Shown here piece by piece: positions 156 to 12,787 of a stretch of DNA of 14,430 nucleotides; the stretch's first letter is position 1; the number at the start of each line of letters is the position of its first letter. A program made the position numbers and the translations under genes. The notes beneath the pieces are model-generated. The model searched no databases, was not told the DNA's origin, and saw only the letters and a program-made list of their open reading frames with translations. Location of the stretch: the NCBI GenBank assembly GCA_030044375.1, contig JASHVX010000034.1, forward strand, positions 1 through 14,430. The letters are read 5' to 3'. This DNA comes from Nitrososphaerales archaeon. GTDB taxonomy: Archaea; Thermoproteota; Nitrososphaeria; Nitrososphaerales; Gagatemarchaeaceae.

Positions 156-1295
156 GTGGCTGAAAGGATAGGGATCGTCGGCGTAGGATACGAAGGGTTC
201 AGGCCGGCCATCACAGACGTCTCCACCAGGGAGCTCATGTATCTCGCGGCCTCCAAGGCGTACGGCGACGCGGGCATCGACCCCAGGAAGGAGATAGGCT
301 CGTTCATCTGCTGCACCGAGGACTTCTGGGAGGGCTGGAGCATCACCGACGAGATGGTGCCCGACCAGGTGGGAGGGGCGCGGAGGCCCGTCTGCACCGT
401 GCCGGCCGACGGCGTCATAGGGCTTGGCCATGCAGCGATGCACATCAGGTCTGGGGTGGCGGACGTGGTGTCGGTCGAGGCTCACAGCAAGGTCGCCGAT
501 GTTGTCGACAAGCAGAGGGTCGAGAACCTCGCGCTGGACCCTCAGCTGCACAGGGTGGCCGGGGTCAACGGCGACATACTGGCAGGCTTGGAGATGAGCG
601 CGTTCATGAAGCGCAAAGGGGTGACGAGGGATGAGGTCAGTCAGGTCGTCAAGACCGAGAAGGGGAACGCATCGCTGAACCCGAGGGCGAGCTACGGGGG
701 CGCGCTGGGTGTCGAAGAGATCGGAGAGGCCGAACCGGTCGCGGACCCCCTCAGGAGGTTCGACAAGGCCGACTACGCCGAGGCCGGGGTGGTGCTCGTG
801 GTGGCGTCGGAGAGCTGGATAAGGAGGAACAAGAAGGACGCGGTCTACGTCGACGGGGTCGCGTGGCGCTCGTGCGCCCCATGGTTCGACGGCGGGGACG
901 CCGGGACCGCCAGATACGCCTCCGACTCGTACGCCGCGGTGAAGAAGCAGGCAGGGTTCAGGGACCTCGACTCGTTCGACGTCCTCGAGCTGGACGACAC
1001 TTACTCCTTCAAGCTGCTGCAGCACCTGATGTCTCTCGGCTTAGACAAGAGGTCCGCGCTCGCGACGCTGGCAGACAAGAAGCGCAGGCTGAACCCCAGC
1101 GGCGGCTCGCTGGGCACCGGATATCTCATCGAGGCGAACGGGTCGCACAAGGTGCTGGAGTGCGTCCTCCAGATCAGAGGCGTGGCTGGGCCGAACCAAG
1201 TCAAGAGGGCTGGCAGCGCGCTCGCCGTGTCGTGGAGAGGGAACCCGACCGGGACGGGGGCGGCGGTCGCGCTTTCGGGGGCGAGCTCGGCATGA
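156..1295 (+). CDS. Thiolase-fold protein lacking the catalytic Cys and His (member 1 of a pair)
   Basis: This 379-residue protein has the thiolase/SCP-x (lipid-transfer-type) fold. It opens with IGIVGVGYEGF and ends with the family's NPSGGSLGTG loop (residues 313-322) and a QIRGVAGPNQVKRA segment. Real thiolases carry a nucleophilic Cys in a CASG-like turn before the long active-site helix. Aligning on ADG (84-86) and IRSGVADVV (97-105) puts Pro83 at that site; the nearest Cys, C80, lies three residues upstream. The GHP histidine is replaced by Tyr323 (GYL). Ordinary thiolysis through an acyl-enzyme is therefore unlikely. The GTG start matches a leaderless promoter. The stop overlaps the next start (ATGA, 1292-1295), implying coupled translation and probably a heteromeric product. 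Relatives are often annotated as acetyl-CoA acetyltransferase, but the missing residues argue against that function. The fold is clear; the reaction is unknown. Confidence 0.85.
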   Translation: MAERIGIVGVGYEGFRPAITDVSTRELMYLAASKAYGDAGIDPRKEIGSFICCTEDFWEGWSITDEMVPDQVGGARRPVCTVPADGVIGLGHAAMHIRSGVADVVSVEAHSKVADVVDKQRVENLALDPQLHRVAGVNGDILAGLEMSAFMKRKGVTRDEVSQVVKTEKGNASLNPRASYGGALGVEEIGEAEPVADPLRRFDKADYAEAGVVLVVASESWIRRNKKDAVYVDGVAWRSCAPWFDGGDAGTARYASDSYAAVKKQAGFRDLDSFDVLELDDTYSFKLLQHLMSLGLDKRSALATLADKKRRLNPSGGSLGTGYLIEANGSHKVLECVLQIRGVAGPNQVKRAGSALAVSWRGNPTGTGAAVALSGASSA

Positions 1296-2449
1296 AGCGC
1301 GTGGCAGTGGTAGGGGCAGGGATGACGAAGTTCAGGCGGCGCATGCTGGAGACAGGGAGGGAGCTCTCCTTCGAGGCGACTAGGATGGCGCTGGACTCCG
1401 CGAGGATGGAAATGAAGGACGTGGAGTCCGTGGTCATGGGCACCGCGCCCGACGCCTTCGACGGGGTCCACATGAAGGAGGAGTACCTGATGGACGGCGC
1501 GGGAGGGACGAACAAGCCCTACAGCCGGGTGTACGTCGGAGGCGGCACCGGGGTCTTCGCGCCGGTCGCGGGCTGGTGGCACGTCGCCTCCGGGATGTTC
1601 GACACGTGCATGGTCGTGTCGGAGGAGAAGATGTCTCCACTGCACCCGCACCCGCAGTACGCCTTCTGGAGCATATTCGACCACACGCTCGAGAGGCCTC
1701 TGGGAGTCACGCTCCTCTGGATCTTCTCGCTCGAGATGAGACGCTACATGGCCGTACACAAGGTCAAGGAGGAGGACATCGCGCTCGTCTCGGTCAAGAA
1801 CAAGGGAAACGCGATGGACCACCCCTGCGCCCAGCTGCCTGCCAGGATCACCGTAGACGACGTGATGAAGAGCGAGCCCATATGCCTCCCTGTGAAGAGG
1901 CTCGACGTCTCTCCCACCTCGGACGGGGCCGCGGCCCTGATGCTGGTATCGGAGGACGTCGTGCACAAGTACACGGACGACCCCGTGTGGATCGACGGGG
2001 TAGGCTGGAACGTCGACACGCAGTATTGGACGAACAGGGACCTGTACTATCCGCGCTACGTCGAGGCCGCGGCCAGGATGGCGTACAAGATGGCGAAGAT
2101 CGACAACCCGCGCAAGCAGATAGACTTCGCTGAGGTATACGACCCCTTCGACTACAAGGAGCTCCACCACATCGAAGGCGTCATGCTGGCGGGGAAGGGA
2201 GAGGCTCCCAAGCTGACCAGGGAGGGGGTCACGCAGAGGGACGGCGACCTCCCGATAAATCCGTCCGGCGGCCTGCTCGGGGTCGGCAACCCCATCGCGG
2301 CGGCAGGGACGATGAAGGTCTGCGAGCTGTTCTGGCAGCTCAGGGGAGAGGCCGGGAAGAGGCAGGTCAAGAAGGAGGTCAACAGGGGCCTCGCACAGGC
2401 CTGGGGCGACTTACTACAAGTGGGGACTGTCATTACGATGAAGCGGTAA
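1292..2449 (+). CDS. Thiolase-fold protein lacking the catalytic Cys and His (member 2 of a pair)
   Basis: This is a 385-residue thiolase/SCP-x-like protein starting MKRVAVVGAGMTKF. I chose the ATG at 1292 because it overlaps the previous stop (ATGA) and gives the normal family N-terminus; the frame is open further upstream, but that part is a shadow of member 1. The active-site turn reads VGGGTG (82-87), so Gly84 sits where the nucleophilic Cys should be. The following WWHVASGMFDTCMVV matches the family helix. The C-terminal motif NPSGGLLGVGNP (323-334) has Asn333 in place of the GHP histidine. EVYDPFDYKEL (281-291) occupies the region of the usual HNEAF-type motif. The family tail LRGEAGKRQVKK is intact, so this is a conserved variant and not a decayed gene. 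With member 1 it probably forms a heteromer, perhaps with the DUF35 proteins at 5860-6836. Its 3' end overlaps the remnant at 2433-3365 by 17 bases. Confidence 0.85.
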   Translation: MKRVAVVGAGMTKFRRRMLETGRELSFEATRMALDSARMEMKDVESVVMGTAPDAFDGVHMKEEYLMDGAGGTNKPYSRVYVGGGTGVFAPVAGWWHVASGMFDTCMVVSEEKMSPLHPHPQYAFWSIFDHTLERPLGVTLLWIFSLEMRRYMAVHKVKEEDIALVSVKNKGNAMDHPCAQLPARITVDDVMKSEPICLPVKRLDVSPTSDGAAALMLVSEDVVHKYTDDPVWIDGVGWNVDTQYWTNRDLYYPRYVEAAARMAYKMAKIDNPRKQIDFAEVYDPFDYKELHHIEGVMLAGKGEAPKLTREGVTQRDGDLPINPSGGLLGVGNPIAAAGTMKVCELFWQLRGEAGKRQVKKEVNRGLAQAWGDLLQVGTVITMKR

Positions 2450-3365
2450 CGCCTTCTCGAGCGACCCTGTCACCCGCTAGTTTCGTGTACTTCGAGGGCC
2501 AGACTCCACCCGCACCAACAGCGCCCAGTTCGCCCCGAAGTCTAAGCGCGTCCTCTAGTTTTCTCTGTTTGAGCTTGTCTGCGAAACCAACTTCGCGGCA
2601 GAACCTGCCCACATCGTCGGTCCTGTTCAGGGTGAAAACCCAATTTGCGTCGTTTGCGACGCCCAGGTTTGTCTTCTGACCGCGCCTTGAATTGACTCTC
2701 AATCTACCCGGATGGTAGCCTAGTTGGAGCGCGCCAGGTCACGGCGGTATCGTACTAGTTCGTAGTCTGAGTTAGAGACGCACAAGCCTACTTAGAGCCT
2801 TGGGCCCGTTCCGTGCAGCCAAGCTCGTGACCGGGCAGCCCTCAGCCGTAAAGAAGCCCCTTAGAAAGCGGGCAGGACTCCGTATGCTCTGCTTCAACAG
2901 GTCGAAGGGTTGAGTCGCAAGCCCGTACAGTTCCACGCTCGTCACTTTGACATTATACCACCTTCCACCGTCGTCCTCGGTAGTCCAGACCCTGTAAGGT
3001 CTCCTGCGTGAGAGGAGTGAGTTCGTCGCCGCCGCGAATTCGCCGGCGAATGACTGCGAGCGCACCTTGAGGCGCATCCTAGCGCCGCCGTCTGAGGTGT
3101 CGCCCCAGCCGTCTCCAAGCCAGCCACCCAAGTAGAAGCTGAGAGAGTCACTCCGCGACGCGTCGAGTTGCAAGACGTTGGTGAAGGGAGACGTGTCGCC
3201 AGCAACCCATCTCCGCAGGGTAGCTCTCGATGGAATGCGTATGCCCTCAGACACCAGGGTCGATACAAGCTCCGACTGCGGCCCGGTCCAGCCAGCGTCA
3301 ACCAGTCCTTTGATGGCCCTGTACGCCTTCATCCGCTCTTCGAGCGGCGAGAACCTCCGTTCCAT
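2433..3365 (-). pseudogene. Decayed LAGLIDADG homing endonuclease gene
   Basis: The intact 5' part (3365 down to 2772, 197 codons) has an N-terminal helix-turn-helix-like segment (PSRATLRRWVAG, 45-56). Two LAGLIDADG-type helices follow: FYLGGWLGDG (77-86, acidic D85) and RFLRGFFTAEG (166-176, acidic E175). Translation then meets TAA at 2772-2774. The protein continues in a shifted frame as NSDYELVRYRRDLARSN, stops again, and resumes in the original frame as LGYHPGRL and on to WVFTLNRTDDVGRFCREVGF, the typical end of this family, stopping at 2433. So there are at least two indels with compensating frames. Both catalytic acidic residues survive, which suggests recent inactivation. The gene lies antisense between genes of one metabolic locus, as expected of a free-standing homing endonuclease. 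It has its own TATA (TTATAA 3387-3392), placing the ATG at a leaderless position. It accounts for the whole 2450-3365 interval. A sequencing error is possible but would need two events. Confidence 0.75.
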
Positions 3366-3386
3366 CTTCGCGGAAAGGATTCTGGC

Positions 3387-3392: not shown

Positions 3393-3435
3393 CCACCACG
3401 TGGGCGCGAATGACCGTCAATTGGCCGCAGGCAGA

Positions 3436-5343
3436 GTGCTCTGGGAGCCGGACCCGTCCTTCGCGAGGAAGACCTCCATCAGCGCCTACATGAAGTGGCT
3501 GGAGAAGCGCGGCGCCTCGTTCGACTCGTATGGCGACCTCTGGAAGTGGTCGGTCGACGACATCGACGGGTTCTGGGGCTCGATATGGAAGTACTTCGAC
3601 GTGGCCGACGCAGACTATCCCGTCCTCGAAGAGAGGAAGATGCCAGGCGCCAAGTGGTTCCCGGGCGCGGACGTCAACTTCGCCGGACACGTCTTCAGGC
3701 AGGTCCGCGAAGGCACGGCCCTGATCTGCAAGGCCGAGGGAGGGCGCGAGCAATCTCTGACGTGGGAGTCGCTCGAGAAGAGGACGGCGGCACTAGCCGC
3801 AACCCTCAGGGAGATGGGCGTGGCCGCAGGCGACCGGGTCGCGGCATACATAGCGAACGGGCCCGAAGCCGTCGTGGGCCTCCTGGCGTGCGCGAGCGTC
3901 GGGGCGGTCTGGTCGAGCTGTCCCCCTGAGTTCGGGGCGCCTGCCGTGGTCGACAGGTTCGGGCAGATTGGCCCGAAGGTGCTCCTGGCCGCTGACGGAT
4001 ACTCGTACGGCGGCAAGTGGATTGACAGGTCCGGAGAGGTGAAGAAGATCGCGGCCAGCCTCCCCGGGGCCAAGGTGATAGGGGTCGGCGGCGGGGTAGC
4101 AGGCGCCTCGTGGGACGACGCGGTCTCCGGAAAGGCGCGGCCGGAATACGAGCCCCTCCCCTTCGACCAGCCGCTCTGGGTCCTGTACTCGTCGGGGACC
4201 ACGGGACTGCCGAAGCCGATAGTGCACAGCCAGGGCGGGATACTCGTCGAGCTCCTGAAGGAGCTCGCGCTCCACAACGACATAAGGCAGGGGGACCGGT
4301 TCTTCTGGTTCACGACCACGGGGTGGATGATGTGGAACTACCTGGTGGGCGGGCTGCTGCTTGGGGCGACGTTGGTGCTCTATGCAGGGAGCCCGGGCTA
4401 CCCGAGCCTCGACGCGCTCTGGGACCTGGCCGAGAGCACCGACATGACATTCCTGGGGACCAGCGCCGCGTTCCTCTCGTCCTGCGAGAAGGCCGGCCTT
4501 GAGCCGCGGTCCACCCATGGGCTCAAGAGACTGAGGGGCATCGGATCGACAGGTTCGCCCCTCTCAGAGGGGAGCTTCGACTGGGTGTACTCGAAGGCGA
4601 AGGAGGAAGTGTGGCTGGCCTCCATAAGCGGGGGGACAGACGTATGCACGGCGTTCGTCGGGGGCTGTCCCGTGCTGCCTGTGAACTCGGGCGAGATACA
4701 GTGCAGGTGCCTGGGGGCCAAGGTCGAGGCCTACGACGCCGAGGGCAAGCCGGTCGTCGGGAAGATGGGCGAGCTCGTGATCACGGAACCGATGCCCAGC
4801 ATGCCGCTCTTCTTCTGGGGAGACGAGGACGGCTCGCGGTACAGGGAGAGCTACTTCAGCGCGTACCCCGGCGTCTGGAGGCACGGCGACTGGATCCAGG
4901 TCACCCCGAGGGGCACCTGCGTGATTTACGGCCGCTCCGACGCGACCATCAAGAGGCTGGGGGTGCGGATAGGGACCAGCGAGATCTACCGTTCGGTGGA
5001 GTCGATGCCGGAGGTGACCGACTGTGTCGCGGTAGACGTAGAGAGGCCAGGAGGCCAGCCGCGCCTCGTCCTGTTCGTAGTCTTGGCAGCCGGCAGGAAG
5101 CTGGACCAGCAGACGGCCGACGCCATCAGGCAGAAGGTGAAGTCGGACCTCTCTCCCAGATACGTGCCGGACGAGGTGGTGGAGGTCGAGTCTGTCCCTA
5201 GGACGCTAAGCGGGAAGAGGCTCGAAGTCCCCATCAAGAGGATACTGATGGGCGCGGACCCGTGGACCACGGTGAGCGCGGGGGCGCTCGCGGACCCTAC
5301 GTCGCTGCAGCAGTACGTAGAATACGCGAAGCGGGCGGCGTGA
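3436..5343 (+). CDS. Acetoacetyl-CoA synthetase family acyl-CoA ligase
   Basis: This ANL-superfamily enzyme makes an acyl-adenylate and then an acyl-CoA, acetoacetate being the family substrate. It is 635 residues from the chosen start, close to the usual ~650. The N-terminal signature LWEPDPSF is followed by YGDLWKWSV and FWGSIWKYF. The phosphate-binding loop YSSGTTGLPKP is near residue 251. The family hallmark TTTGWMMWNYL is near 297, with GATLVLYAGSPGYP after it. HGDWIQVTPRGTCVIYGRSDATIK marks the C-terminal hinge, and the adenylation lysine is K594 in LSGKRLE. The start is uncertain: in-frame GTG 3400, TTG 3421 and GTG 3436 all fit. I chose 3436 because LWEPDP is the normal beginning and the TATA at 3387-3392 would place transcription start after 3400. 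It probably belongs functionally with the thiolase pair and the DUF35 genes. Another beta-keto acid as substrate cannot be excluded. Confidence 0.88.
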   Translation: MLWEPDPSFARKTSISAYMKWLEKRGASFDSYGDLWKWSVDDIDGFWGSIWKYFDVADADYPVLEERKMPGAKWFPGADVNFAGHVFRQVREGTALICKAEGGREQSLTWESLEKRTAALAATLREMGVAAGDRVAAYIANGPEAVVGLLACASVGAVWSSCPPEFGAPAVVDRFGQIGPKVLLAADGYSYGGKWIDRSGEVKKIAASLPGAKVIGVGGGVAGASWDDAVSGKARPEYEPLPFDQPLWVLYSSGTTGLPKPIVHSQGGILVELLKELALHNDIRQGDRFFWFTTTGWMMWNYLVGGLLLGATLVLYAGSPGYPSLDALWDLAESTDMTFLGTSAAFLSSCEKAGLEPRSTHGLKRLRGIGSTGSPLSEGSFDWVYSKAKEEVWLASISGGTDVCTAFVGGCPVLPVNSGEIQCRCLGAKVEAYDAEGKPVVGKMGELVITEPMPSMPLFFWGDEDGSRYRESYFSAYPGVWRHGDWIQVTPRGTCVIYGRSDATIKRLGVRIGTSEIYRSVESMPEVTDCVAVDVERPGGQPRLVLFVVLAAGRKLDQQTADAIRQKVKSDLSPRYVPDEVVEVESVPRTLSGKRLEVPIKRILMGADPWTTVSAGALADPTSLQQYVEYAKRAA

Positions 5344-5859: not shown

Positions 5860-6369
5860 TTGAGCTCCAAGATACGGGACTACCCTGGCACCGAGGTCGA
5901 CCCGAAGGAGCTGCAGGCGGGCAAGTTTCTCACTACGAGGTACGAGACAGTGCTCAGGTACTCCTGGACCTCCGGCGTGGCCATCAGCAGGTTCCTGGAC
6001 GGCCTGAAGGAGGGAGAGCTTTGGGCTACGAAGTGCGACAGGTGCGGCAGGGTGCTTGTCCCGCCGAGGGCGTACTGCGAGGAGGACTTCGCCCCTATCG
6101 ACAAGTGGGTCCGCGTGAAGGACACGGGGACGGTCAACACATTCTCGATAAGCTACGTCAACAACGACGCGAGCAGGAGGAAGAAGCCCATCATAGTGGC
6201 CGTGATAGACATCGATGGCGCGTCTCCGGGAATGGGCATCCTGCACATAATGGGCGGCGTCGACCCGCAGAAGGTGCACGTCGGGATGAAGGTAGAGGCG
6301 GTCTGGAAGCCGAAGGCCGAGAGGGCAGGGGCGATCACAGACATAACTCACTTCAGGCCGAGGGTCTGA
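5860..6369 (+). CDS. DUF35 zinc-ribbon/OB-fold protein 1 (three-Cys variant)
   Basis: This 169-residue protein has the DUF35 layout: an N-terminal helix (SGVAISRFLDGLKEGELWA), a rubredoxin-like zinc ribbon, then an OB-fold. The ribbon reads CDRCGRVLVPPRAYCEED, with Cys59, Cys62 and Cys73, but the expected fourth Cys is Asp76. The OB part runs from about 82 to 169 (KDTGTVNTFSISYV, IIVAVIDIDG, GMKVEAVW). DUF35 proteins are non-catalytic partners of thiolase-fold enzymes: they bridge thiolase and HMG-CoA synthase in archaea and help gate the acyl-CoA site in Ltp2-type aldolases. The TTG start has GGAAG a few bases upstream and a weak TATA-like element near 5824-5831. It lies five bases before its paralogue and on the same strand as the thiolase pair, its likely partners. 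Confidence 0.85.
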   Translation: MSSKIRDYPGTEVDPKELQAGKFLTTRYETVLRYSWTSGVAISRFLDGLKEGELWATKCDRCGRVLVPPRAYCEEDFAPIDKWVRVKDTGTVNTFSISYVNNDASRRKKPIIVAVIDIDGASPGMGILHIMGGVDPQKVHVGMKVEAVWKPKAERAGAITDITHFRPRV

Positions 6370-6374
6370 GATCC

Positions 6375-6836
6375 ATGGCATTGAAAGAGAGGATAACGAG
6401 CACAGACAAGATCAGGTCGTGGACCGACCAGATCCCGTTCCACTACGAGTACACGGCCGGCGTCGCGGGTGAGAGGTTCCTGCGGGGCCTTCAGGAGGGA
6501 AAGGTCCTCGCCTCCGAGTGTGTTTCGTGCGGGAAGCTCCAGCTGCCGCCGAAGGCATACTGCGTCGACTGCTTCGCGCAGACCAAGAGATACAGGAGGG
6601 TCGGTCCGGAAGGGACTGTGGCCGCCCTGACCCGCAGCAGCGTCGGGTTCGAAGGCGAGCGCCTTCCGAGGCCCCAGGCGTTCGTCTACGTCACGTTCGA
6701 AGGCGTAGTGGGAGGCGTCGTCCACAGGGCATTGGGCGACGGCGTCGAGATAGGGTCGAAGGTGGCCCCAAGGTTCAAGGCGCAGGGCAAGCGGACGGGC
6801 TCGATGCTGGACATCGAAGGGTTCGCGAAAGCCTGA
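6375..6836 (+). CDS. DUF35 zinc-ribbon/OB-fold protein 2
   Basis: This 153-residue paralogue of the preceding gene has the same order of parts. A helical lead (TAGVAGERFLRGLQEGKVLA) precedes a complete four-Cys zinc ribbon: CVSCG (Cys49, Cys52) and YCVDC (Cys63, Cys66). An OB-fold follows (GPEGTVAALTRSSV, AFVYVTFEGVVGGVV, GSKVAPRF). The shared frame FxxGLxEGxxxAxxCxxCGxxxxPPxAYC shows that the two arose by duplication. The ATG at 6375 lies five bases after the first gene's stop, so they form an operon. Two diverged DUF35 proteins beside two diverged thiolase-like proteins suggest a four-component complex, or two one-to-one pairs. The protein should act as a docking and substrate-channel subunit, not as a catalyst. 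The longer open frame upstream of this ATG only shadows gene 1. Confidence 0.88.
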   Translation: MALKERITSTDKIRSWTDQIPFHYEYTAGVAGERFLRGLQEGKVLASECVSCGKLQLPPKAYCVDCFAQTKRYRRVGPEGTVAALTRSSVGFEGERLPRPQAFVYVTFEGVVGGVVHRALGDGVEIGSKVAPRFKAQGKRTGSMLDIEGFAKA

Positions 6837-6843
6837 GCGCCGG

Positions 6844-7761
6844 CTACATGTCGACCCGGGTCAGCCACTTCGAGTACTTCGCGACCTTGCCGTGCACCAC
6901 GTCCCTGTAGAGGGCGCTGATCCGCTCGGTGACTGGGGACCGGCCGTTCCCTATCTTCCTCCCGTCGACCTCCCGCACCTTCGCTATCCCCACGGCGGTC
7001 CCGCTGAAGAACAGCTCGTCCGACGTGTACAGCTCCTCCCGGGTGAAGTCGTTCCTGTAGAACTTCAGGTTCGTGTCCAAGGCAAACTGGATCACCGTGT
7101 CCCTGGTTATGCCCCTGAGTATCCCTGAGCTGGCCGGCGGCGTGCTGAGGATGCCGTCCTTGACTCGGAAGACGTTCTCTCCCGGCCCCTCGGCGACGAC
7201 GCCGTGGCTGTTCAGGAGTATCGCCTCTTCCACGCCAGCCGCTATCGCCTCCATCTTGGCCAGCCCGGAGTTGGCGTAGTTGGCTGAGCACTTCGCCTGA
7301 GGAGGAAGCGACCTCGGGTCGAGCCTCACCCAGCTCGAGACCATGGCCCTCACGCCCCCGTCGTTGCCTTCCTTCCCGAGGTAGTCGCCCCACTCCCACG
7401 ACGCTATCGACACGGATATCTTGTTGCTGAGGGGGTTCAGGCCCATCTCGCCGTAGCCTGTGTAGGCTATGGGACGGATGTATGACTCGGGGACGCCGTT
7501 CTTTCTGACCAGGTCGATGCACGCTTCGCGGAGCTCGTTCGCGGAGAAGCCCAGGTTCATCCTATAGATCTTGGCGCTGTTGAGGAACCGGTCGATGTGC
7601 CCGTCCAGCCTGAATATCGCGGGCCCGTGGGCAGTCGAGAAGCAGCGGATCCCTTCGAAGATCGAGTAGCCGTAGTGGAGCCCGTGCGTGAGGACGTGTA
7701 TCTTCGCGTCCTCCCAGTCGACGAACTTCCCGTCCATCCAGATCTTCTTGAGCGCCTTCAT
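6844..7761 (-). CDS. ilvE: Branched-chain amino acid aminotransferase
   Basis: This 305-residue fold-type IV PLP enzyme transfers the amino group between Leu, Ile or Val and 2-oxoglutarate. It has the normal length and order of motifs. IWMDGKFVDWEDAKIHVLTHGLHYG is the N-terminal family signature. FEGIRCF (35-41) and RLDGHIDRFLNSA (51-63) follow. The PLP lysine is K157 in QAKCSANYANS. The family loop EGPGENVF (191-198) and GILRGITRDTVI are intact, as is FSGTAVGIAKV near the C-terminus. The ATG at 7761 is preceded by a TATA-like box at 7791-7798 that would give a leader of about seven bases. The gene converges on the DUF35 pair, with seven bases between stops, and diverges from the thiolase at 7923. 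It may supply branched 2-oxo acids to the nearby CoA enzymes, but biosynthesis is the default role. D-amino-acid aminotransferase is a less likely alternative. Confidence 0.92.
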   Translation of the reverse strand: MKALKKIWMDGKFVDWEDAKIHVLTHGLHYGYSIFEGIRCFSTAHGPAIFRLDGHIDRFLNSAKIYRMNLGFSANELREACIDLVRKNGVPESYIRPIAYTGYGEMGLNPLSNKISVSIASWEWGDYLGKEGNDGGVRAMVSSWVRLDPRSLPPQAKCSANYANSGLAKMEAIAAGVEEAILLNSHGVVAEGPGENVFRVKDGILSTPPASSGILRGITRDTVIQFALDTNLKFYRNDFTREELYTSDELFFSGTAVGIAKVREVDGRKIGNGRSPVTERISALYRDVVHGKVAKYSKWLTRVDM

Positions 7762-7922: not shown

Positions 7923-9110
7923 ATGGAAGACCCCGTGATCCTCTCGGCGTGCAGGACGGGAATCGGGAAGTTCGGGAAGAGCCTCGTCGGCGTGAAGGCG
8001 ACGAAGCTGGGCTCAGTGGTCATCCAGGAGGCGCTGCGAAGGGCGAAGGTGGAGCCCTCGAAGGTCGACGAGGTCATCATGGGCAACGCGCTCGCCGCGG
8101 GCCTGGGCCAGAACCCCGCAAGGCAGGCTGCGATCGGGGGAGGAGTCCCCTTCGGAAAGGGCGCCGTCACGGTGAACAAGGTCTGCGGCTCGGGGCTCAA
8201 AGCAGTGATGCTCGCGGCTCAGGCCGTCAAGGCGGGGGACGCCGAGGTCGTGGTCGCAGGGGGGATGGAGAGCATGAGCAACGCGCCCCACATAGTGAGG
8301 GGCGAGCGCTGGGGGGTCAAGTTCGGCGACGCCCGGCTCCTCGACGCGATGCTCCTAGACGGGCTCTGGGACGCCTACCACGACTACCACATGGGGATCA
8401 CTGGCGAGAACGTGGCGAGGCGATACGGAATCACCAGGAAGGAGGCCGACCAGTTCGCGCTCGAGAGCCACATGAAGGCCGCAAGCGCCTCGAAGTCCGG
8501 GGCGTTCGCCGAAGAGATGGTCAAGGTCGATGTGGAGAGGGAGGACGGGAGCGCGTCGGTGTTCGATTCTGACGAATGCGTCAGGGCGGACACCACGCTC
8601 GAGAGGCTCGCCCAGCTCCGCCCGGTCTTCAAGGAAGGCGGGCTGCTGACCGCAGGGAACTCGTCCCAGCTCAGCGACGGCGCGTCTGCGCTTGTCGTGG
8701 CCTCCGAGAGGGCCGCGGACAGGCTGGGCGCGGAGCCCCTGGCCAAGATACTCGGCTACTCGACAGGCGGGCTCGAGCCGGCCAGGGTGATGGAGGCGCC
8801 GATACCCACCACGAAGGCGCTGCTCAGGAAGACGCGGATGACCGTGTCGGACATCGACTTGTTCGAGCACAACGAGGCGTACTCGACGGCCTCGATAGCC
8901 GTGAGGAGGGCGCTGGGGATACCGGAGGAGAAGTTCAACGTCAACGGAGGGGCGGTGGCGCTCGGCCACCCGATAGGGTGCAGCGGGGCCCGCGTCCTGA
9001 CCACTCTGATCTACGCCCTCAGGAGGGCCAAGAAGGAGACCGGGCTCGCGACGCTCTGCCTGGGGGGCGGCAACGCGGTCTCGATGGTCATTCAGAGCCA
9101 GGCTCTCTGA
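7923..9110 (+). CDS. Acetyl-CoA C-acetyltransferase (canonical thiolase)
   Basis: This 395-residue thiolase converts acetoacetyl-CoA plus CoA to two acetyl-CoA, or the reverse condensation. All three catalytic elements are present: Cys88 in KVCGSGLKAV, His349 in ALGHPIGCSG, and Cys379 in LCLGGGNAVS. The start signature ILSACRTGIGKFGKSL, the segment AGGMESMSNAPH and the motif EHNEAYSTA are typical of the acetyl-CoA acetyltransferase (AtoB/PhaA) type. Its intact active site contrasts directly with the two Cys-less paralogues at 156-2449. The ATG fits a leaderless promoter. The 3' end overlaps the convergent ligase gene by 23 bases. A 3-ketoacyl-CoA thiolase with a wider chain-length range is the main alternative; whether it degrades or builds acetoacetyl-CoA cannot be read from the sequence. 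Confidence 0.93.
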   Translation: MEDPVILSACRTGIGKFGKSLVGVKATKLGSVVIQEALRRAKVEPSKVDEVIMGNALAAGLGQNPARQAAIGGGVPFGKGAVTVNKVCGSGLKAVMLAAQAVKAGDAEVVVAGGMESMSNAPHIVRGERWGVKFGDARLLDAMLLDGLWDAYHDYHMGITGENVARRYGITRKEADQFALESHMKAASASKSGAFAEEMVKVDVEREDGSASVFDSDECVRADTTLERLAQLRPVFKEGGLLTAGNSSQLSDGASALVVASERAADRLGAEPLAKILGYSTGGLEPARVMEAPIPTTKALLRKTRMTVSDIDLFEHNEAYSTASIAVRRALGIPEEKFNVNGGAVALGHPIGCSGARVLTTLIYALRRAKKETGLATLCLGGGNAVSMVIQSQAL

Positions 9111-10882: not shown

Positions 10883-12001
10883 ATGTCAGGGGAGCCTGAG
10901 CACCTTCTAATCCTGTGCGTGGACAGAGACGACGACCTGGGCGTCAAGGCGAGAGTCCAGACTCCCGTCGTAGGCAGGGACGCCGCCCTAGCGGCTGCCA
11001 CCAAGCTCGCCCTCTCCGACCCCGAGGAGGCCGACGCCAACGCGATCTTCGCCGCGGTGAAGAGGCTGGACGAGCTCTCCTCGAAGGGGACGGACTGCGA
11101 GGTCGCAGTGGTCTCTGGTGACATCAACAGGGGCATCGACGCGGACAGGCATGTGAGCAGGGAGATACAGGGGATACTCAAGGGGTCGAACTACACGGGG
11201 GTGATCCTCGTCTCCGACGGCGGCGATGACGAGAGCGTCATCCCTGTCGTGCAGAGCCTGAAGCCCATCGTCTCCGTGGACAGGGTGGCGGTGAAGCACA
11301 GCCAGTCCGTCGAGGAGACATACATGGTGCTCGGCCGCTACCTCAGGATGCTTGTCTTCGACCCATATTACTCGAAGTGGAGTCTCGGAGTCCCAGGGCT
11401 CATCCTCATCCTCGCCGGCATCCTCACGGTCTTCGGCAAGGTGCTTGACGCCGAGCTCGCCGCGCTCTTGATCCTCGGAGGTGCCTTCTTCATCAGGGGG
11501 TTCAACGTCGACAGGACCGTAGCCGGTCTCCTGCACAGGGGGCCCACAGGATACATACGGTTCTTCTCCATGGTGACCAGCGTGCTCGTGGTCGTAGCCG
11601 GGATATTCACCGGATACAGCGACATGATAATGACGCCCGCGGCTAACGCGGTGGCTGCCGACCCGTCTCAGCTTTTCATATTCGGCGGGAGGCTCGTGGG
11701 CTACCTCATCAGCGGGAGCCTGAACCTCGTCTGGGCGGGCGTGGCCATCTATGCCACCGGCGCGCTGCTCTCCCACCTCGCGCGCGACAGCGTCCGCTGG
11801 AGGCGCGACGTCTTCCTGCTGGTGATGCTGGGGCTCTTCTATCTCCCCGTCAACACCTTCTCGGAGTTCCTCATCAGCGGGACCGCGGAGTCGACTCTCC
11901 TCCTGATATCGTACATCCTGCTTGGGCTCGCGGCGACCTTCGTCCTGACGACCGCCCTCTACCCAAGGCTGAGGACCAAGGGATTCACAGACAGGGACTA
12001 G
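10883..12001 (+). CDS. DUF373 family integral membrane protein
   Basis: This 372-residue protein is of the DUF373 type, which is essentially archaeal and has no established function. The N-terminal ~165 residues look soluble and Rossmann-like: HLLILCVDRDDDLGVKA (7-23), the family segment ALSDPEEADANAIFAAVKRL (43-62), EVAVVSGD (73-80), and GVILVSDGGDDE (106-117). From about residue 168 on there are roughly six to seven hydrophobic segments, starting VPGLILILAGILTVFG, with later ones including FFSMVTSVLVVVAGIF and LLLISYILLGLAATFVLTTAL. The stop lies three bases before the uppS start, so the two genes are almost certainly co-transcribed. That pairing suggests a role near membrane lipid or polyprenol metabolism, which is inference only. 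The family call is firm; the function is open. Confidence 0.87.
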   Translation: MSGEPEHLLILCVDRDDDLGVKARVQTPVVGRDAALAAATKLALSDPEEADANAIFAAVKRLDELSSKGTDCEVAVVSGDINRGIDADRHVSREIQGILKGSNYTGVILVSDGGDDESVIPVVQSLKPIVSVDRVAVKHSQSVEETYMVLGRYLRMLVFDPYYSKWSLGVPGLILILAGILTVFGKVLDAELAALLILGGAFFIRGFNVDRTVAGLLHRGPTGYIRFFSMVTSVLVVVAGIFTGYSDMIMTPAANAVAADPSQLFIFGGRLVGYLISGSLNLVWAGVAIYATGALLSHLARDSVRWRRDVFLLVMLGLFYLPVNTFSEFLISGTAESTLLLISYILLGLAATFVLTTALYPRLRTKGFTDRD

Positions 12002-12004
12002 CCG

Positions 12005-12787
12005 ATGCTCGACTCGGTTCTCCGGACGGTCGGAGCGTACAGGCTGTATGAAGGGAGGCTCAAGGCTCAGGTGGAGGCCGAGCCGATCCCCTCACACATA
12101 GGCATCATACTCGACGGGAACAGGCGCTGGGCGGCCAGCCAGGGGCTCACCAACGGGCTGGGCCACAAGGAAGGCGCGAACAGGGCCGAGGAGCTGCTGG
12201 ACTGGTGCCACGAGCTCGGCATAAGGACCGTGACCCTCTATGTGCTCTCGACTGAGAACCTGGAGAGGGAGATAGACGAGCTCAAGGGGCTCTTCGAGCT
12301 GATCGAGGCCAGGCTGAACGGCCTCCTGTCCGACGAGAGGATAGTGAGGTACAAGGTGAAGGTGAGGGCGATAGGGCACCTCGACCTCCTCCCTCAGTCC
12401 ATCCGCGACCTCCTCTCGGCCATCGAAGCCAAGACGGCCCAGTTCGACACGCACTTCCTCAACATAGCCGTCGCATACGGCGGGAGGGCGGAGATCACTG
12501 ACGTCATGAGGGCGGTCGCCCGGGAGGTGAAGGCCGGGGCGCTGGACCCCGAGGAGATCACCGAGGAGACGATCGGCAGGAGGCTCTACACGTCGTTCCT
12601 GCCGAACCAGGAGCCGGAGCTGATCATAAGGACGTCCGGCGAGGAGAGGATGAGCGGATTCCTCCTATGGCAGGGGGCGTACTCGGAGCTCGTGTTCATG
12701 GACGTGTTCTGGCCGGCCTTCCGGAAGATAGACCTGATGAGGGCGATAAGGACGTACCAGAGAAGGACGCGCAGATACGGAAAGTAG
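12005..12787 (+). CDS. uppS: cis-Prenyltransferase (undecaprenyl-diphosphate-synthase type)
   Basis: This 260-residue cytosolic cis-prenyltransferase adds isopentenyl diphosphate units in cis to make long polyprenyl diphosphates. In archaea these become the dolichol-type carriers for glycan assembly. The conserved regions are complete: ILDGNRRWA (35-43), with the Mg-binding catalytic Asp37; GLGHKEGA (51-58); TLYVLSTENLER (77-88); NIAVAYGGRAEI (153-164); and RTSGEERMSGFLLWQGAYSELVF (209-231). The SEL element helps bind the homoallylic substrate. The length is typical. The ATG follows the DUF373 stop after three bases, so translation is probably coupled. The TAG at 12785-12787 is followed at once by the promoter of the next gene. 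The exact chain length of the product cannot be told. Confidence 0.94.
   Translation: MLDSVLRTVGAYRLYEGRLKAQVEAEPIPSHIGIILDGNRRWAASQGLTNGLGHKEGANRAEELLDWCHELGIRTVTLYVLSTENLEREIDELKGLFELIEARLNGLLSDERIVRYKVKVRAIGHLDLLPQSIRDLLSAIEAKTAQFDTHFLNIAVAYGGRAEITDVMRAVAREVKAGALDPEEITEETIGRRLYTSFLPNQEPELIIRTSGEERMSGFLLWQGAYSELVFMDVFWPAFRKIDLMRAIRTYQRRTRRYGK

Follow-up and report, generated by a model that had tools for sequence, protein, structure and literature searches.

The window analysed here, a stretch of 14,430 nucleotides (contig JASHVX010000034.1, assembly GCA_030044375.1) from a Nitrososphaerales archaeon whose genome of 0.94 Mb is 72% complete, encodes two adjacent proteins of the thiolase fold, member 1 (TH1, positions 156..1295) and member 2 (TH2, positions 1292..2449), both on the forward strand and both without the nucleophilic Cys and the GHP His of thiolases. 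Together with two DUF35 genes the pair makes up a conserved four-gene system of archaea and bacteria and is not a product of decay, and it is furthermore asymmetric, member 2 being invariant at the pocket and member 1 variable there. The explanation that we favour, though tentatively, is that the four proteins form a four-subunit, Cys-free retro-aldolase acting on beta-hydroxyacyl-coenzyme A (CoA) esters, with member 2 as its catalytic subunit and member 1 as a probable partner subunit.

Loss of the thiolase catalytic residues

Residues were compared in a MAFFT alignment that included the canonical thiolase of the window and comprised 100 member-2 and 90 member-1 rows, the window counted. The column of the canonical nucleophile C88 is occupied by Pro83 in member 1 (codon at 402..404, forward strand as all codons here) and by Gly84 in member 2 (1541..1543), the column of the GHP histidine H349 by Tyr323 (1122..1124) and Asn333 (2288..2290), and that of C379 by Trp in both members. 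These four substitutions at C88 and H349, the gene coordinates and the overlap of the two genes at ATGA (ATG at 1292-1294, stop codon TGA at 1293-1295) had all been given correctly in a preliminary description of the window, and the canonical acetyl-CoA C-acetyltransferase with C88, H349 and C379 that it had noted is indeed encoded at 7923..9110 (forward strand), as judged by model match and alignment. The statement that all other family motifs are intact was however wrong, as the third catalytic motif, which in Cys-bearing relatives is HDCF, reads YDPF in member 2 (Tyr283-Phe286, 2138..2149) and DDTY in member 1. As a positive control, Cys, His and HDCF were all present in 5/7 outgroup rows of the same alignment, the remaining two rows being a distant Cys-less pair from locus L109. 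Both members have the thiolase fold, and neither has the nucleophilic Cys and GHP His that define a thiolase.

In member 2 these replacements are without exception, with Gly in the nucleophile column, Asn in the GHP-His column and YDPF at the place of HDCF each found in 100/100 rows, and the conservation extends around the site as ExYDPFxYKxLHH and GVGNPIAA. The loss in member 2 is not a matter of chance, since both the Gly and the Asn are present in every row. The nucleophile column of member 1 is occupied by A in 25 of the 90 rows, T in 25, S in 14, P in 13, G in 8 and C in 5, and its His column is likewise variable (N in 23, Y in 19, V in 19, H in 11, and others), the relatives of the window at loci L035 and L037 being among those with His. 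Cys and His occur together in 0/90 member-1 rows. At the HDCF place, DDxY or DDxF is found in at least 59/90 rows, counting the eight commonest forms. The preliminary description had also named a finding that would speak against its view, namely Cys80 of member 1 or any Cys of member 2 at the nucleophile position. By sequence, Cys80 lies three residues ahead of the nucleophile column, with Cys at that place in 28/90 rows, and the segment from Pro83 to Gly100 can be matched gap-free to the canonical thiolase sequence. In member 2, Cys reaches at most 63/100 rows in any column.

The possibility should be mentioned that the pair is a thiolase of the ordinary kind whose nucleophile is unusual, similar to the haloarchaeal beta-ketothiolases BktB/PhaA, which resemble the pair in being Cys-less and, as is probable for the pair, in having an OB-fold partner, and for which a Ser-His-His triad is reported (PMC7137286). 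The occasional Cys and the more frequent Ser in the member-1 column, as well as the fact that the best fold matches of the pair are true thiolases, are in agreement with this notion. Neither member has that triad, however, and the invariant Gly and Asn of member 2 together with the failure of any member-1 row to combine Cys and His make it most improbable.

The asymmetry of the pair fits the earlier suggestion that one subunit is perhaps only structural, member 1 being the variable one. It may also be asked whether neither thiolase-fold protein has any catalytic role, the pair supporting another enzyme as its scaffold or carrying acyl-CoA for it. PhlA of the PhlABC acyltransferase, which has Gly where the Cys would be, is considered necessary for assembly without taking a direct part in acyl transfer (PMC6392133), and the variable site of member 1 would be expected in such a case. 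A scaffold would however not need the pocket of member 2 to be invariant across archaeal and bacterial rows, and the gene maps, in which neighbours are partly annotated, reveal no constant partner beyond the two DUF35 genes, so that this explanation appears improbable.

Conservation, distribution and phylogeny

The survey comprised 110 loci, L005-L034 being the 30 best matches of the phylum sample and L035-L114 the best 80 from genome contigs. An intact member-2 open reading frame (ORF) was present in 99 of these, the window itself being excluded from the count, and the 11 loci without an intact member-2 ORF over 400 bits are either truncated (L097, L101, L103, L104, L105 and L108) or belong to the outgroup (L109-L113). 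A member-1-like thiolase lies directly upstream of member 2 in 89/99 loci, and two DUF35 genes follow on the same strand at most 6 kb downstream in likewise 89/99, with none in 8 and one in 2, some of these at contig ends. The hosts include Nitrososphaerota, Thermoproteota, Asgard lineages, Thermoplasmatota, Bacillota and Myxococcota among others, according to the labels under which the metagenome-assembled genomes (MAGs) were deposited, and the closest named relative of the window's member 2 comes from a Nitrososphaerales MAG (L035, 96% identity). In the phylum sample the family model of member 2, NF004721, is matched over its cut-off in 85/398 genomes. The widespread four-gene unit, and the coverage of member 2 by this model, go beyond what the preliminary description had recognized.

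In a tree of 60 rows, TH1 (26 rows) forms one clade with support of 100/99 and TH2 (26 rows) another with 100/100, the two being joined at 97/93, and TH1 branches are mostly longer than TH2 branches. Identity to the window copy ranges from 33 to 71% for 53 other TH1 rows and from 59 to 96% for 50 other non-outgroup TH2 rows. From these sequences the loss of Cys and His looks ancient and appears to have been kept. A more distant Cys-less pair, with S/N at the two catalytic positions in one gene and G/N together with YAPF in the other, is found in Desulfobacterota (L109:8705-11173), where it falls just outside the TH1 and TH2 clades and is preceded by an acyl-CoA dehydrogenase and followed by one DUF35 gene. 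Among plasmid records there are 558 that match member 2, but their best place is always below 60% identity, the top among the matches listed being 35.5%, and there is therefore no close copy in the plasmid records.

In the window, family searches place the first DUF35 protein, a zinc ribbon followed by an OB fold, at 5860..6369 and the second at 6375..6836, both on the forward strand. The first has CxxC...CxxD and not CxxC...CxxC, the fourth zinc-ligand position being Asp, as in 6/91 of the first-DUF35 genes of the surveyed loci.

Family models and fold

The best NCBIfam model for member 1 is NF004722 (PRK06066), with 363.8 bits and thus below the cut-off of 516, while member 2 scores 671.7 bits with NF004721 (PRK06065), well over the cut-off of 455. 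Both models are titled 'thiolase domain-containing protein', and the titles give no function. The AlphaFold model of member 1 has a predicted local distance difference test score (pLDDT) of 92.7, and the best PDB fold matches of this predicted structure are the archaeal acetoacetyl-CoA thiolase 6et9/6esq, which is the top or tied-top match of both members and has a DUF35 partner, as the pair putatively does, but, unlike the pair, keeps its Cys (Cys85, PMC6392133). Benzoylsuccinyl-CoA thiolase BbsAB (7pxp, 7pyt), classed as a true thiolase, is also a close fold match; the two members nonetheless reach only 47.5 and 117.6 bits with the BbsB model NF053628, far below its cut-off of 750. BbsAB, too, has a zinc-finger/OB partner.

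The fourth gene of locus L117 (genome G393), the counterpart of the second DUF35 gene of the window, matches 3irb, the structure of the DUF35 protein SSO2064, over its full length with an E-value of 1.2e-98, and the description of SSO2064 ties the family, by way of phlABC, to an active and an inactive member of the thiolase superfamily (PMC2954200). Pieces of the system are hence already in databases (NF004721, NF004722, 3irb) under names without function, and in the literature searched, from whose scope most subscription journals fell outside, neither a function for this pair nor a treatment of the four genes as one enzyme was found. Within the thiolase fold linked to DUF35 proteins, the pair represents a conserved variant to which no function has been assigned.

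Comparison with Cys-free aldolases and related complexes

The preliminary description had compared the pair with the steroid aldolase Ltp2, an analogy that holds in part. The Ltp2-ChsH2 complex (6ok1) shares with the pair the thiolase fold, a DUF35 partner, to which for the pair the two downstream DUF35 genes of 89/99 loci point indirectly, and the Tyr of a YD-x-F motif at the same place, the proposed base of member 2. The bile acid aldolase Sal-Shy (9myr) shares with member 2 the Gly at the nucleophile place, the Tyr and, again, a DUF35 partner, putative for member 2 (PMC12329534). The base of Ltp2 is reported to be Tyr294 of YDHF and its acid Tyr344; in Sal these roles are assigned to Tyr302 and Cys304 in the motif YDCY, and Gln352 occupies the position of Ltp2 Tyr344 (PMC12329534). 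In a phmmer comparison, TH2 residues 277-332 align with 288-343 of 6ok1, two segments of equal length, with an E-value of 0.24 for this short piece; the match of full-length TH2 to 6ok1 (E-value 2.2e-15) ends at the same residue pair. The equal lengths place Tyr283 on Tyr294 of Ltp2, and Asn333 would follow on 344 if the register continues; the spacing from the Tyr to the Asn333 position is 50 residues in member 2, Ltp2 and Sal alike. The match of TH2 to Sal 9myr is also of equal length and would fit the Ltp2 register, provided that the residue index of the 9myr chain exceeds the numbering in the paper by 24.

Where thiolases have HDCF, member 2 accordingly carries a Tyr within a YD-x-[FY] motif and, as Sal, it has Gly in place of the nucleophile. 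Two observations nevertheless weigh against an aldolase. The overall fold and sequence of the pair are nearer to true thiolases than to the Ltp2/Sal aldolases, with only 22-24 percent identity to Ltp2, and the known proton donors are absent: Tyr344 of Ltp2 corresponds to Asn333 in member 2 (YDPF standing against YDHF), and Cys304 of Sal to Pro285. Asn333 also stands where Sal has Gln352, and the set analysed here differs from Ltp2-ChsH2 in its two thiolase-fold and two DUF35 genes. If member 2 is a retro-aldolase nonetheless, we infer from its sequence a third catalytic arrangement, Gly/Asn/YDPF, for which Asn333, Tyr288, Lys289, His292, His293 or a residue of member 1 are guesses at the proton donor.

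PhlABC (5m3k) is another mixed complex in which a Cys-less superfamily subunit is combined with a DUF35-type subunit, but PhlC keeps Cys88 and His347 and PhlA is described as nearest to HMG-CoA (3-hydroxy-3-methylglutaryl-CoA) synthases and KAS III-type synthases (PMC6392133). The fold matches furthermore include structures of the SCP2-thiolase-like protein of Trypanosoma (TbSLP), which has YDCF and is reported to decarboxylate malonyl-CoA slowly (PMC12329534), and the pair might be considered to decarboxylate a malonyl-type CoA ester, or to carry out enolate chemistry on it, without a Cys. The same report however proposes TbSLP as an aldolase and describes Sal as lacking such activity (PMC12329534), and the Cys of YDCF is Pro285 in member 2, all of which renders this reading very unlikely.

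Proposed mechanism

In the Cys-free retro-aldolase that we favour, Tyr283 of the YDPF motif would be the base that attacks the beta-hydroxyl group of the substrate, a beta-hydroxyacyl-CoA. The bond between C-alpha and C-beta would be split in a retro-aldol reaction to give a ketone or aldehyde together with a shorter acyl-CoA in its enolate form. An acyl-enzyme is not proposed to arise, because Gly84 stands in place of the nucleophile. Member 1 would be a paralogous partner shaping the dimer, and by analogy with Ltp2-ChsH2 and Sal-Shy the DUF35 proteins would complete the acyl-CoA site. The heteromer without an acyl-enzyme that the preliminary description had predicted is plausible; the heteromer, the aldol chemistry, its direction and its substrate are all points that we infer. 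The likeliest substrates would be short branched, perhaps tertiary, beta-hydroxyacyl-CoAs, since ordinary thiolysis requires oxidation to a ketone, which such compounds do not allow.

A more specific form of this proposal, which we consider rather unlikely, is that the four-subunit retro-aldolase has short tertiary beta-hydroxyacyl-CoAs as its substrates, 3-hydroxy-3-methylbutyryl-CoA for example, and so provides archaea and anaerobic bacteria with a route for leucine or other beta-methyl-branched acids that dispenses with methylcrotonyl-CoA carboxylase and HMG-CoA lyase. All the genes found missing below would be dispensable if 3-hydroxy-3-methylbutyryl-CoA were cleaved, but the neighbouring acetoacetate--CoA ligase would then be left unexplained. 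If the pair is an aldolase, some archaeal genes labelled thiolase or acetyl-CoA acetyltransferase would be misnamed, and a missing step of branched acyl-CoA breakdown would become testable in Sulfolobus acidocaldarius, which is described as genetically tractable (PMC6449355).

Gene neighbourhood

The unit is accompanied by genes for acyl-CoA dehydrogenases, acetoacetate--CoA ligases and B12 mutases, among others, which point to the catabolism of short or branched acyl-CoAs. Acyl-CoA dehydrogenase (PF00441) lies at most 10 kb from TH2 in 8/16 sampled genomes (16 genera), the 8 spanning 7 families, against 0.86 expected (P 5.5e-7 if independent), and like the other enrichment figures this one rests on rounded genome sizes and manually entered coordinates and ignores relatedness. 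Acetoacetate--CoA ligase is found over cut-off in 19/49 genomes with TH2 and in 3/31 without (p 0.005 by Fisher's test, relatedness ignored). Of the 19 ligase-bearing genomes with TH2, 8, from families f1, f17 and f32, have it at most 10 kb from TH2, 0.24 being expected. In the clade of the window the ligase gene separates member 2 from the DUF35 genes. A canonical thiolase gene lies farther on, and in some members of the clade the gene for the branched-chain amino acid transaminase IlvE stands between the DUF35 genes and this thiolase; in the bacterial locus L096 a ligase-like and a thiolase gene are found a few kb upstream of the unit. The ligase of the window itself (3433..5343, forward strand, start provisional in a frame open from 3178) scores 786 bits with TIGR01217 (cut-off 520.9), and the canonical thiolase may be a consumer of acetoacetyl-CoA. 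IlvE of the window is assigned by model match (6844..7761, reverse strand) and is found at the same place in L035, L036, L037, L038, L047, L051 and L115 and, cut at the contig end, in L105, with no match there in L042, L046, L049, L050, L065 or L103.

B12 mutases are found near the unit in 7/60 named loci and in L125, with Phe at one diagnostic position in 8/8 and Gln at the other in 7/7 readable cases, residues that we take to mark isobutyryl-CoA over methylmalonyl-CoA mutases. IOR alpha occurs near the unit in L100 and L117 (over cut-off) and in L099 and L123 (by similarity), but is not supported as a constant neighbour, being found in 2/16 sampled genomes (G393 over cut-off, G197 with 294.6 bits). 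Enoyl-CoA hydratase likewise lacks support in this role, as it lies at most 10 kb from TH2 in 1/16 genomes, while an enoyl-CoA hydratase cluster is present in 12/60 named loci, four of them outgroup. The dehydrogenases were not assigned as isovaleryl-CoA dehydrogenases, since GAGT, a motif that marks that enzyme, was seen only in outgroup locus L109, readable rows having mainly IGEGT, YEGT or IGDGT and several being unmatched. No common theme was apparent among the annotated neighbours in L076 (aminomutase, DNA polymerase IV, CdaA) and in L052, L055 and L102 (TldD, M29 peptidase, radical SAM).

These neighbours also bear on the direction of the reaction, since the same chemistry run forwards would join carbons in an aldol or Claisen-like reaction of a CoA thioester that involves no acyl-enzyme, for example in building a beta-hydroxyacyl-CoA such as HMG-CoA. 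The ligase inside the operon of the window clade, and nearby in two other families, would suit such a synthesis, as would a KAS III/chalcone-synthase-type protein that in L125 (6128-7363) directly follows the four-gene unit and is itself followed by a B12 mutase and its small subunit, and archaeal HMG-CoA synthase is reported to have both a thiolase and a DUF35 protein as working partners (PMC6392133). Matches to the archaeal HMG-CoA synthase model are furthermore weak (26-54 bits) in the TH2-bearing genomes G197, G350 and G313. The acyl-CoA dehydrogenase neighbours suggest breakdown, however, and HMG-CoA synthase is found over cut-off in 18/32 genomes, including G338 of the window's genus (447.5 bits), where none is missing, so that a forward role is unlikely overall. 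As a substitute for HMG-CoA synthase the pair was rejected for the window's genus only, G338 having its own, and not for G197, G350 and G313.

Pathway genes in the host genomes

A special case of the retro-aldolase is an HMG-CoA lyase analogue in leucine breakdown, which would split HMG-CoA into acetoacetate and acetyl-CoA for the ligase and thiolase to follow. It is in agreement with the ligase and canonical thiolase genes that adjoin the unit, joined by IlvE in some members of the clade, and the HMG-CoA lyase model is matched over cut-off in 0/80 genomes against 3/14 controls, 66/80 having weaker superfamily matches. The 31 genomes without TH2 lack such a match as well, however, and the absence is for this reason no pointer to a replacement. 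Moreover the carboxyltransferase PF01039, needed to make HMG-CoA from leucine, is present in 18/32 genomes (12/22 with TH2, 6/10 without), with no match in G000 or in G338, a genome of the same genus on one contig and 100% complete. A leucine route by way of carboxylase and HMG-CoA is consequently unlikely in the window's genus, and the lyase analogue has little probability.

An acetone carboxylase partner was rejected, its gamma subunit being found in 1/32 genomes (G176, without TH2) with a model that matched 0/14 controls. In four genomes of family f5 (contigs G376:C12, G281:C1, G301:C22 and G001:C22) the ligase lies at most about 1 kb from an HMGL-superfamily open frame of 444-455 residues, which is possibly another source of acetoacetate.

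Other features of the window

Between member 2 and the ligase, the window has an insert at 2450-3378 with a LAGLIDADG-like ORF of 197 residues on the reverse strand (2772-3365), whose match to PF14528 is weak and below cut-off. Insert-like sequence is found at the same place in L039, L042, L046, L051, L103, L105 and L108, while L035, L036, L037, L038, L044, L047, L049, L050 and L065 have no insert-sized gap as judged by ORF ends. Further downstream a gene for a DUF373 protein (10883-12001) adjoins an ORF at 12005-12787 that, judged by eye, resembles polyprenyl-diphosphate synthases.

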